A stretch of DNA of 35,332 nucleotides from Actinomycetes bacterium (lineage in GTDB: Bacteria; Actinomycetota; Actinomycetes; Nanopelagicales; Nanopelagicaceae): contig CAKKQM010000010.1 in the NCBI GenBank assembly GCA_919902125.1, positions 10,557 through 45,888 on the forward strand, in the 5' to 3' direction. Below are positions 501 to 3,482 of this stretch, piece by piece; within the stretch, counting starts at the first letter, position 1, and every line of letters begins with the position of its first letter. A program made the position numbers and the translations under genes. The notes beneath the pieces are model-generated. The model ran no database searches, was not told where the DNA came from, and saw only the letters and a program-made list of their open reading frames with translations.

Positions 501-1112
501 ATGCTTTTGCACATGCGACTTAATAGCGATATCACGACATTAATTGCTCTGTTTGCCATCGTGAGCCCCATTACCTCTATCCCTGTTTTTCTTTCTCTCA
601 CCTCTGGCGCCACCAAGGAAAAACGACGTGTTATCGCTATGCAAACTGCCCTGGTCTCGGGATTGACTCTATTTATCGCCTACTTCATAGGGGATGTCAT
701 TCTGAAATTACTCAGTATTCAAATGGATGCATTCCGCATTGCAGGCGCGCTCGTAATTGGCGCGATAGCGTGGGGCATGGTGATGGGAAAGAAAGGTAAT
801 GTCATCGAAGCCTCTCCATCGGGTGCTGCGGTAGTCCCGCTTGCTATTCCCTTGATGGCTGGGCCTGGAGCAATAGCGACAGTGATTGCAATCGGCAATT
901 CTGACCGCGGAATCGTCCGCATCGCTGATGCGATCATCATTCTGGTTCTATCGCTTCTGACATTCTTGCTATTGCTCGCAGCAGAACCAATTGAACGCAT
1001 ACTTGGTGAGCAAGGCCTTATGGTGCTGACACGCATCTTTGGTCTGCTATTGCTTGCGATTGCAGTCTCTACGATTATGTCAGCACTTACATCAGCATTT
1101 CCAGGTCTCTAA
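501..1112 (+). CDS. MarC family integral membrane protein
   Basis: ORF 203 aa; multi-TM; MarC-like motifs (LFAIVSPITSIPVFLSLT, VPLAIPLMAGPGAIATVI). Possible alternative starts near the 5' end. Confidence 0.85.
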   Translation: MLLHMRLNSDITTLIALFAIVSPITSIPVFLSLTSGATKEKRRVIAMQTALVSGLTLFIAYFIGDVILKLLSIQMDAFRIAGALVIGAIAWGMVMGKKGNVIEASPSGAAVVPLAIPLMAGPGAIATVIAIGNSDRGIVRIADAIIILVLSLLTFLLLLAAEPIERILGEQGLMVLTRIFGLLLLAIAVSTIMSALTSAFPGL

Positions 1113-1129: not shown

Positions 1130-1156
1130 AACAGAAAAGTCGCCCTGTAAGCCGGA
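1130..1156 (-). repeat. rnpB 3'-end fragment 1 (most distal)
   Basis: aacagaaaagtcgccctgtaagccgga versus aacagaggagtcgccctataagccgga at the rnpB 3' end; about 24/27 identical. Confidence 0.75.
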
Positions 1157-1194
1157 GAATCAGCAGTATCCGCTTGAATTACGTGTTGAAGTGT

Positions 1195-1250
1195 TTGACC
1201 GACATTCAGATCTGTGGATAAATTGTACAAAATATGTACTTTTTAGTACA
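1195..1250 (+). promoter_or_regulatory. TA promoter/operator: TTGACC-N18-TAAATT with YefM-type TGTACA boxes
   Basis: TTGACC 1195-1200, TAAATT 1219-1224; TGTACA 1224-1229; perfect IR TGTACT-tttt-AGTACA 1235-1250. YefM operators with a TGTACA core are established in E. coli. Confidence 0.65.
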
Positions 1251-1258
1251 ATCTTGTT

Positions 1259-1507
1259 ATGTCAGATTTGTCCATCTCAAATGCTCGCGCCGATCTTGCC
1301 AAAGCCGTTACTCGCGCCAAAAAAAATCCGGTGACCATCTCGAGGCACGGTAAGCCTATTGCCGTACTGATTAACCCATCATTGTTCGAAAAATTTGTTG
1401 AGTCAATCGAAGAACTAGAAGACATTGCTGCATTTGATGAAGCAATGTCCGATAAAGATCCAACAATTCCATGGGAGCAGGTCAAGAAAGATCTAGGCCT
1501 TCTTTGA
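1259..1507 (+). CDS. Type II antitoxin, Phd/YefM family
   Basis: 82 aa; SISNARADLAKAVTRAKKNPVTISRHGKPIAVLI is the Phd/YefM N-terminal pattern. Confidence 0.9.
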   Translation: MSDLSISNARADLAKAVTRAKKNPVTISRHGKPIAVLINPSLFEKFVESIEELEDIAAFDEAMSDKDPTIPWEQVKKDLGLL

Positions 1508-1776
1508 CCAATTACTCAATCGAGGTAAAGAAGAAAGCACAAAAATACCTCAGCACAATTCCCAAGAAGGACAAGCTCCGAATCGTTGGAGCAATAGAAT
1601 TACTCCGCGAGAATCCACTTCCGCCAAAGTCCTTGAAACTCAAAGGGCGCGACGGTTATCGAATTCGAATTGGCGAATATCGCATTATTTATTCTTTCAA
1701 TAGTAAACGGCTAACCATCCTCGTTATTAAAATTGGTCGCCGCAGAGACATCTATCAAACCGATTCCAATGAATAA
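1504..1776 (+). CDS. Type II toxin, RelE/ParE family mRNA interferase-like
   Basis: YSIEVKKKAQKYLSTIPKKDKLRIVGAIELLRENPLPPKSLKLKGRDGYRIRIGEYRIIYSFNSKRLTILVIKIGRRRDIY. Likely TTG start overlapping the antitoxin TGA (TTGA); the ORF is open to 1471. Confidence 0.88.
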   Translation: MTNYSIEVKKKAQKYLSTIPKKDKLRIVGAIELLRENPLPPKSLKLKGRDGYRIRIGEYRIIYSFNSKRLTILVIKIGRRRDIYQTDSNE

Positions 1777-1870
1777 CAGAAGAGTCGCTCTGTAAGCCGG
1801 ATCCTGTCGTCAACCTTGTTGCGACCTGCTGGTCTAGTTATTTGCTCGCAAATTTGCCAGCTTATTAAAA
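1775..1870 (-). repeat. rnpB 3'-end fragment 2 (diverged sequence, apparently conserved hairpins)
   Basis: First ~38 nt nearly identical to the rnpB 3' end. The rest keeps AACTAGA after a hairpin (ATTTG-CGAG-CAAAT) and a helix GTCGCAAC-aag-GTTG-a-CGAC in place of CGTCC-tttg-GGACG. Confidence 0.65.
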
Positions 1871-1882
1871 AGGACCCCGATT

Positions 1883-1943
1883 TGAACTGAACCCCTGAAG
1901 TTGGAGACTCAATTAAGAGTCTCGACCGAAGGGGTTCTTTTCA
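1883..1943. repeat. ~27-bp imperfect inverted repeat resembling IS3-family termini; may also act as a terminator
   Basis: TGAACTGAACCCCTGAAGTTGGAGACTC - AATTAA - GAGTCTCGACCGAAGGGGTTCTTTTCA. Confidence 0.5.
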
Positions 1944-2020
1944 ATTGCTCAGGGCCCTTGCTCAATCACCTTCAACTTCTTGATCACTACCAATAGATCA
2001 GTTTCAAGTGGTTAAGACTG

Positions 2021-2095
2021 TGGTGTAGGTGACGGGATTCGAACCCGTACTGCAGGTTTGGTAAACAAGCGTGCTGCCAGTTACACCACACCCAC
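2021..2095 (-). tRNA. tRNA-like gene (75 nt, encoded CCA); anticodon loop TTACCAA reads as ACC; anticodon stem has two mismatches; isotype uncertain, possible pseudogene
   Basis: GTGGGTG/CACCTAC acceptor (one G-U), D arm GTGTAACTGGCAGCAC, T arm ACGGG-TTCGAAT-CCCGT, discriminator A, CCA. Anticodon stem CTTGT/ACCTG pairs at only 3 of 5 positions. Confidence 0.6.
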
Positions 2096-2172
2096 ATCAC
2101 GAGGTGAAGTGTGCTGTTTTGTGGGAATTAACAAATTTAGAATTTCAAATTATGTGTATAGATTTTTCTTGG

Positions 2173-2217
2173 GGAAAGAGAAGGACCCGACAAGTTATAT
2201 CGGGTCCTTCTCTTTCC
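2173..2217. terminator. Perfect 18-bp inverted repeat, 9-nt loop; terminator candidate
   Basis: GGAAAGAGAAGGACCCGA-caagttata-TCGGGTCCTTCTCTTTCC. Confidence 0.6.
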
Positions 2218-2273
2218 AAACCTGCAGTGCACAGAAAGTATGGCAGAGAATTCAATTACTCGGAGTTAATGTG

Positions 2274-2437
2274 AACAGAGGAGTCGCCCTATAAGCCAGA
2301 TCCTGTCGTCCCAAAGAACGGATCACCATCCATCTAGTTCCGCAATTGCTCACGGAATCAAGCGACCTACCCGATAGCTCGAACGAGCAGTTCTCAAGCG
2401 CTATCTGTCTGGTCTTGCTCCAGGTGGGGTTTACCTA
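2274..2437 (-). repeat. rnpB 3'-end fragment 3: 164 nt near-identical to 3106-3269
   Basis: Direct comparison shows two differences by eye (agccAga/agccGga, aaagAacgg/aaagGacgg). Homology ends after ggtttaccta. Confidence 0.95.
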
Positions 2438-2492
2438 TTCATAACAGAGCTTTCTCTACCAAGACACGGTAAGGCGCTGATACCCTTAACGC

Positions 2493-2783
2493 ATGAGCCA
2501 GCGTCTGGAATACCTACGAGCGAACAGTGAAGCTATCAGGGCTATTGCAGCTCGCCACAAAGCTTTCAATGTTGCAGTTTTCGGAAGCGTTGCTCGCGGT
2601 GAGGATACCCCCAATAGCGATATCGACATACTTGTCGATTTCCTGCCAGGGGCATCCTTGGTGGACGAATTTCGCTTAGAGAATGAACTTCAAGAATTTC
2701 TGAAAACAAAAGTAGACTTGATTTCGCGAGGTGGCCTGAAAGCTAGGGACACCCATATTCGGGAAGAGTCGATGGCCTTATGA
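2493..2783 (+). CDS. MntA/MNT-type minimal nucleotidyltransferase antitoxin
   Basis: GSVARGEDTPNSDID matches GSX10DXD exactly; adjacent hepT-like gene. Confidence 0.88.
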   Translation: MSQRLEYLRANSEAIRAIAARHKAFNVAVFGSVARGEDTPNSDIDILVDFLPGASLVDEFRLENELQEFLKTKVDLISRGGLKARDTHIREESMAL

Positions 2784-3103
2784 GTCGTTCCGACACTGAA
2801 CGAATTGAAGACATCCTTGAATATGCCGACAAAATCGCAAACGCAGTGGCTCTTGGACATCACGTCTTTCTAAGTGACCAGTATGTGAGTCCTGCCGTCG
2901 AACGCTTCATTGAAGTGTTGGGAGAGGCGGCTAGGCAATTATCTGATGCCCGCAAGGCAGATTTTCCAGAAATAAACTGGGGAGAAATTGTCGGCCTTAG
3001 AACCCGATTAGCCCACATTTATCACCGGATTGATATAGAAAATATTTGGGGTGCCGCGTCACACGACGTACCGAACCTTGCGCGAGTACTTCGCGAAAAA
3101 TAG
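2780..3103 (+). CDS. HepT-like (DUF86/HEPN) toxin
   Basis: RTRLAHIY matches RX4HXY; ATGA overlap with the upstream nucleotidyltransferase ORF. Confidence 0.88.
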   Translation: MSRSDTERIEDILEYADKIANAVALGHHVFLSDQYVSPAVERFIEVLGEAARQLSDARKADFPEINWGEIVGLRTRLAHIYHRIDIENIWGAASHDVPNLARVLREK

Positions 3104-3109
3104 AAAACA

Positions 3110-3482
3110 GAGGAGTCGCCCTATAAGCCGGATCCTGTCGTCCCAAAGGACGGATCACCATCCATCTAGTTCCGCAATTGCTCACGGAATCAAGCGACCT
3201 ACCCGATAGCTCGAACGAGCAGTTCTCAAGCGCTATCTGTCTGGTCTTGCTCCAGGTGGGGTTTACCTAGCCACATGCGTTGCCGCACATGCTGGTGGTC
3301 TCTTACACCACCGTTTCACCCTTACTCGTTATTGCTAGCGAGCGGTTTATTTTCTGTGGCACTCTTCCCGCGGATTGCTCCGGGTGGGCGTTACCCACCA
3401 CCTTGCTCTCTGGAGTCCGGACTTTCCTCGGTGCTACCCAGAGTTAACTGGGCTACAACGCGGTGATCCGGGCGACTCATCT
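3110..3482 (-). ncRNA. rnpB: RNase P RNA (complete)
   Basis: Sense strand has GAGGAAAGTCCGGACTCC near the 5' end and CAGGATCCGGCTTAT near the 3' end; P1 helix GAGTCGCCC (3470-3478) pairs with GGGCGACTC (3113-3121). Confidence 0.95.

Follow-up and report, generated by a model that had tools for sequence, protein, structure and literature searches.

Accretion of CIMEs and IMEs at the 3′ end of a gene has been described, for example, for the ICESt1-related elements of Streptococcus (PMC5704250), and additive islands with tRNA-end repeats have been described for freshwater Methylopumilus (PMC10872708). The stretch of DNA analysed here (hereafter the window; 35,332 nt, corresponding to C10:10557-45888 in contig coordinates), from an actinobacterium of the family Nanopelagicaceae (the acI lineage), carries an arrangement of this general kind in which the repeated gene end is that of rnpB. 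We suggest that the rnpB 3′ end very probably serves as an attachment site at which cassettes accumulate by site-specific accretion.

The original prediction was of a complete rnpB accompanied by three further copies of its 3′ end in the same orientation, each alignable to the gene, and covariance-model, alignment and core searches agree on this picture. RF00010 finds the full-length gene (class A RNase P RNA; 3108-3479, minus strand, as for all copies named here) at 308 bits and also matches, at 80 bits, the longest truncated copy (2274-2437), a core copy that takes in 164 nt of the gene's 3′ end; it is 99% identical to rnpB, terminates at GGTTTACCTA and forms the left boundary of the MntA/HepT cassette. 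A core copy with a degenerate rnpB 3′ end of ~90 nt (1775-1868) forms the left boundary of a cassette with a tRNA-like gene, and a core copy of 27 nt (1130-1156) that of the Phd/ParE cassette; all three lie on the 3′ side of rnpB. The unit common to the repeats is a core of ~24 bp, AGARGAGTCGCCCTATAAGCCGGA, which a core match places within rnpB itself as the final ~24 nt of the gene (3109-3132). With up to three mismatches allowed, the 23-nt core occurs four times in the window, always on the same strand, and not once in 100 shuffles. On its own contig the array extends to the left beyond the window, with cores at C10:131, 3262 and 4760, and the genes between the left-hand contig cores encode E1 dehydrogenase subunits together with a lipoyl domain, DinB, TerC, PGPGW, MMPL and MarC proteins. 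The gene for the MarC-family membrane protein (501-1112, plus strand; PF01914, 1e-44) is the right-hand gene of the next interval (C10:4760-11689); just to its left lies a 30-bp tandem repeat of 3.2 copies (345-441).

The genes assigned to the two protein-coding cassettes were called correctly. One encodes a Phd/YefM antitoxin (1259-1507, plus strand; PF02604, 6e-13; TIGR01552, 2e-8) and a ParE/RelE-superfamily toxin (1471-1776, plus strand; PF05016, 1.7e-9; the frame opens at 1471 and the true start may be later), and the other an MntA-like nucleotidyltransferase that would act as antitoxin (2493-2783, plus strand; PF01909, 3e-12; NF047752, 4e-12, below the cut-off) and a HepT-like RNase toxin (2780-3103, plus strand; PF01934, 9e-18; NF047751, 1.4e-6, below the cut-off). 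Their stop codons abut the repeats as claimed, TAA at 1774-1776 overlapping the repeat at 1775 and TAG at 3101-3103 lying 2 nt ahead of 3106.

The middle interval holds the expected tRNA-like gene (called as tRNA-Gly ACC; 2021-2095, minus strand). Cassettes homologous to this one are present in at least ten genomes, with homologues of window positions 1988-2228 at loci L043, L052, L090, L099, L169, L171, L178, L179 and L054, and a model of the tRNA-like RNA matches 99 of 296 genomes at E ≤ 1e-6, the weaker of which may be ordinary tRNAs. The RNA is conserved, lies inside rnpB arrays and has a noncanonical anticodon arm. A terminator-like hairpin is located upstream in the sense of the tRNA (2173-2217, minus strand; an 18-bp perfect inverted repeat with a conserved helix), and a leader segment (2213-2228, minus strand; inverted repeat I4) is complementary to the anticodon loop and 3′ strand of the tRNA-like RNA. 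This pairing, of up to 13 bp, covaries across genomes (94.6% of cells paired and six pairs changed on both sides, against 18-42% for slid controls), and a local hairpin that draws on the same 3′ strand covaries as well, so that alternative pairings are likely; the loop of a trailer hairpin shows UAUUGGUA, complementary to the anticodon loop of the tRNA-like RNA. The RNA and its leader look like a switch or attenuator. Identity as tmRNA was rejected, given that 11 of 15 genomes checked encode an ordinary tmRNA at another place. Weaker relatives (80-99 bits) are scattered off the core arrays in genome G015 (C3:456362, C2:813405, C2:204022 and C3:306804) and perhaps represent a wider mobile RNA family.

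The phenomenon extends beyond this genome. Of 296 family genomes, 151 contain the pattern AGARGAGTCGCCCTATAAGCCGG without mismatch, representing 12 of 17 genera, with up to six occurrences per genome, and a reversed-pattern control gave no match. A class-wide sample searched with two mismatches allowed gave matches in 39 of its 41 family genomes, and beyond the family an array was found in G633 only, with a single near-match in four others. Arrays often comprise 2-6 core copies that bound cassettes, and in most of 58 loci read (complete single-contig genomes included) same-strand core arrays lie downstream of rnpB; core orientation is uniform, and the cores are downstream wherever rnpB is on the contig, with exceptions in G121, G034 and G153. 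At the G121 locus (L093, C22) four cores are inverted and one of these lies 5′ of rnpB, which sets this array apart from the rest of those read, and in G034 and G153 a second rnpB-like stretch complicates the array picture; at the G034 locus (L041, C19), two rnpB copies, at 1179 and 9351, lie ~8 kb apart, each with a core. A lone core with one mismatch in G184 (C1:347005), on the strand opposite to the rnpB array and over 400 kb away from it, is a possible secondary attachment site.

The core-to-core cassettes (n = 113) have a median length of 779 bp (quartiles 492-1449) and carry toxin–antitoxin, metabolic, transport and restriction–modification (R-M) genes, with 128 cargo open reading frames directed along rnpB and 54 against it. 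The notion of small toxin–antitoxin cassettes thus needs widening, as such pairs are present but are one among many cargo types rather than the defining one. Similarly, the ~24-bp core holds up as the mark of the mobile unit, whereas the longer rnpB pieces are special to the window's genus, where they match each host's rnpB. Nor is the suggested divergence of copies with distance from rnpB general: across 73 array cores, divergence showed no relation to rank from rnpB (Spearman rho 0.007). The idea that every rnpB-adjacent cassette brings a terminator hairpin was rejected, a strong hairpin being present in just 16 of 49.

Comparison of related genomes reveals both occupied and empty sites and near-identical cassettes across genera, the polymorphism that the original prediction had looked for. 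G119 and G173, members of two genera, share a 4,104-bp cassette that encodes DUF2231, Rieske, DUF305 and HMA proteins and is 99.95% identical between them. A windowed alignment of the two gives mostly 97-100% identity within the block, against 31-41% (unrelated sequence) to its left; cassette identity ends at the cores, and rnpB is already divergent immediately beyond the core. The adjoining SnoaL cassette is 97% identical, which against the 99.95% of its neighbour makes it probable that they were transferred at separate times. The site is unoccupied in G021, which is related to G119 and ~95% identical to it in the flanks; a single core lies there between the same flanks. Together with 21 full-length cassette pairs between different genera, these alignments indicate that the cassettes differ in occurrence from genome to genome and cross genus boundaries, and the core arrays, the cassette boundaries at cores and the empty site in G021 uphold the rnpB 3′ end as a recurrent attachment site.

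As anticipated, the window's array has no local integrase; no IntR-like gene was found in the window's genome, where XerC/D-like genes are the sole tyrosine recombinases found. The search of relatives for a tyrosine recombinase apparently specific to the rnpB site was successful. Apart from XerC/D-like genes, there is a clade (IntR) of seven genes in six genomes, with ~50% mutual identity and 46-51% identity to the query. In six of the seven, a copy of the rnpB core follows the int stop codon at a distance of no more than ~310 bp (mismatches over the 24 nt: 0, 0, 0, 2, 4 and 5); the seventh, in G036, has just an 8-mismatch site beside int. At 24 other tyrosine recombinase loci, the best core match had 7-10 mismatches, mostly at chance level. 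The catalytic residues R-K-H-R-H-Y are invariant in six aligned members, in keeping with the PF00589 tyrosine recombinases, and the predicted structure (mean pLDDT 82, pTM 0.57) has three N-terminal strands and a helix, followed by core-binding and catalytic domains, with Tn1549 Int as the nearest solved structure (E 5e-15). Three strands and a helix are the topology of arm-binding domains. Elements of 6.6-6.8 kb encode, besides Int, an excisionase-like helix–turn–helix (HTH) protein (TIGR01764, 1e-12) and possibly a Rep; common to the elements of G234, G082 and G036 are int, a 262-347-aa protein, small HTH genes and a 432-aa protein whose match to replication proteins is very weak. The element of G165 is 11.1 kb long and carries a type III R-M system, and no conjugation genes were recognised in the complete elements examined. 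The cargo of the G234 and G036 elements (L181 and L184) includes large proteins with 8-9 DUF4379 treble-clef repeats. None of the IMG/VR viral contigs carried the core or the integrase, neither a free circular form nor a phage carrying attP was found among the viral contigs searched, and integrases from phage records included no near relative, the best being ~32% identical among the matches listed.

The cassettes that lack int are tied to the integrase elements by shared arm repeats. Direct repeats of the form TGCCC-N7-TGCCC (12-bp period) are located 30-42 bp from the core as a right arm and about 112-144 bp from it, mostly 132-135, as a left arm, and these positions match those in the integrase elements, in which TGCCC repeats lie 41 bp and 134 bp from the core (both arms in G165; the left-hand arm in G234, G245 and G082). 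With at most one mismatch, at least one arm is present in 33 of 113 cassettes and both in 11, against expectations from shuffling of 0.16 and 0.28 per end (~0.2-0.3). The remaining 80, all of the window's cassettes included, have no arm repeats, and a canonical attP is demonstrable at most for the minority with arms. Given that the window's genome has no IntR and its cassettes no arm repeats, its array is probably immobile at present or reliant on an incoming integrase.

We therefore envision the following course of events. The last ~24 nt of rnpB would be the attB of an integrative element family of these actinobacteria, and IntR, encoded by a minority of the elements, would recombine this attB core with the one borne by a circular element. 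As the incoming element would supply its own core copy, rnpB would stay intact and the old copy would come to lie at the distal end of the insert. Further rounds of this, probably for the most part at the core nearest rnpB, may then have produced the core-cargo-core arrays downstream of rnpB. Most cassettes have lost int or never had it and would persist as non-autonomous units, and those with arms on both sides could probably be moved in trans by IntR. The strand-exchange reaction, the movement in trans and a vehicle between cells are steps that we infer. A bolder and more tentative extension, which we hold to be possible though we would not favour it, is a family-wide cassette exchange on an essential ribozyme gene, in which int-less, often arm-less cassettes of one gene would be captured, stacked and traded among the streamlined acI genera with the integrase acting in trans, a counterpart of the integron without attC or a resident integrase.

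The arrays might instead have been built by RecA-dependent recombination (that is, tandem duplication, or uptake of an rnpB piece and a single crossover) with no dedicated recombinase, and the window's genus offers some reason to consider this. A ~160-nt rnpB piece lies beside MntA/HepT in G000, G017, G018 and G015, and its breakpoints almost coincide, those of G017, G018 and G015 being near GGTTTACCTA, and in G000, G017 and G018 it is 97-98% identical to the host's own rnpB, host-specific insertions and other indels included, the rnpBs of the genus members compared differing by 10-16%. The pieces either are kept similar by homologous exchange or stem from the host itself; such a match requires homologous exchange or gene conversion, and homologous exchange thus evidently also acts in this genus. 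In G015, one cassette's rnpB piece is only ~70% identical to the genus's other copies, as expected of foreign origin. The finding of XerC/D-like genes as sole tyrosine recombinases in the window's genome would likewise suit a RecA route. However, most cassettes have only ~24 bp in common with rnpB, which is short for RecA, the boundaries are exact (the 99.95% block stops at the core, not within rnpB), and the integrase clade adjoins the same core, with arm repeats at fixed distances, so that we consider RecA improbable as the builder of the arrays.

Part of the window does have the look of a vertically inherited array, made of ancient rnpB duplications and ordinary neighbouring genes. The order Phd/ParE, tRNA-like, MntA/HepT is common to the window's genome and that of its sister species G017 at 76-91% identity (91% for the Phd/ParE cassette and 76% over the aligned part of the tRNA-like one), and in many genera the cores on the left side of the tRNA-like gene have degenerated. 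Because the order is the same in G017, the Phd/ParE and tRNA-like cassettes are inherited rather than new, and the view of the window's cassettes as new arrivals has to be given up for part of the intervals. Vertical descent could nevertheless account for the oldest layer at most, in view of the strong polymorphism, the near-identical cassettes across genera and the empty site; the comparison of G119, G173 and G021 already largely refutes it, and as a general explanation it is very unlikely. We judge it just as unlikely that XerC and XerD mobilise the cassettes by a dif-like IMEX mechanism: Xer-like recombinases are indeed present in 30 of 30 genomes checked, the window's included, where IntR is absent, yet the core is the rnpB end and, judged by eye, unlike a dif site, arm repeats are unusual for Xer elements, and the int beside the core belongs to a separate clade.

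Site-specific accretion at the rnpB 3′ end, the reading we prefer, would add the RNase P RNA gene to the list of RNA genes that serve as integration targets; we found no earlier report of rnpB in this role among the open-access papers searched. The acI actinobacteria are among the commonest bacteria of lakes and have tiny genomes, and the route by which they take up genes is an open question; a gene-entry point can now be described in precise and countable terms, with a candidate enzyme, a 24-bp site, arm sites and dozens of cassettes.

As in elements known from the 3′ ends of RNA genes, a direct repeat of the gene end bounds the insert and the gene is left intact, the target being rnpB (RF00010) rather than a tRNA or tmRNA gene; an integrase lies beside the att site in relatives (six of seven clade members) and is absent from the window's genome. 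Integron arrays resemble the present ones in having small single-gene units with a recurrent recombination site between them, but here the separators are the rnpB core rather than attC, the window's array has no IntI or integrase platform, the integrase clade scores 44.6 bits against an integron integrase model with a cut-off of 265, and the logic is attB/attP-like with arm repeats. Arm-type repeats that flank the core, as in a lambda-type attP, are found in 33 of 113 cassettes, not those of the window. IntR itself shares its catalytic fold and residues, its predicted N-terminal topology and the arms flanking the core with Tn1549/Tn916- and lambda-type integrases, and is 21-24% identical to Tn1549 Int over the aligned region; what sets it apart from these is a target fixed in rnpB, with elements that are small and without recognised conjugation genes. 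The fGI1 tRNA cassettes of Ca. Actinomarinales (PMC7771536) are also small, end in an RNA-gene repeat, occur in streamlined actinobacteria and are exchanged between genera, but target tRNAs within an envelope island. The closest precedents are CIME accretion and the tRNA-end-repeat islands of Methylopumilus. With the CIMEs and IMEs (PMC5704250), the rnpB arrays have in common att-flanked, decayed units without int or transfer genes, accreted in tandem at one restored gene end, and int-less units stand beside rarer complete ones; here, by contrast, the target is the RNase P RNA gene, and most units hold one or two genes in 0.4-1.5 kb. With Methylopumilus (PMC10872708), the shared features are a streamlined freshwater plankton host and an RNA gene whose last ~20 nt are repeated and bound variable genes; that system belongs to an unrelated phylum and targets tRNA-Lys, and the parts of its description consulted mention neither a matching integrase nor arm sites. 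New here are the choice of rnpB as target, an integrase together with its arm sites, and small int-less cassettes in such numbers.
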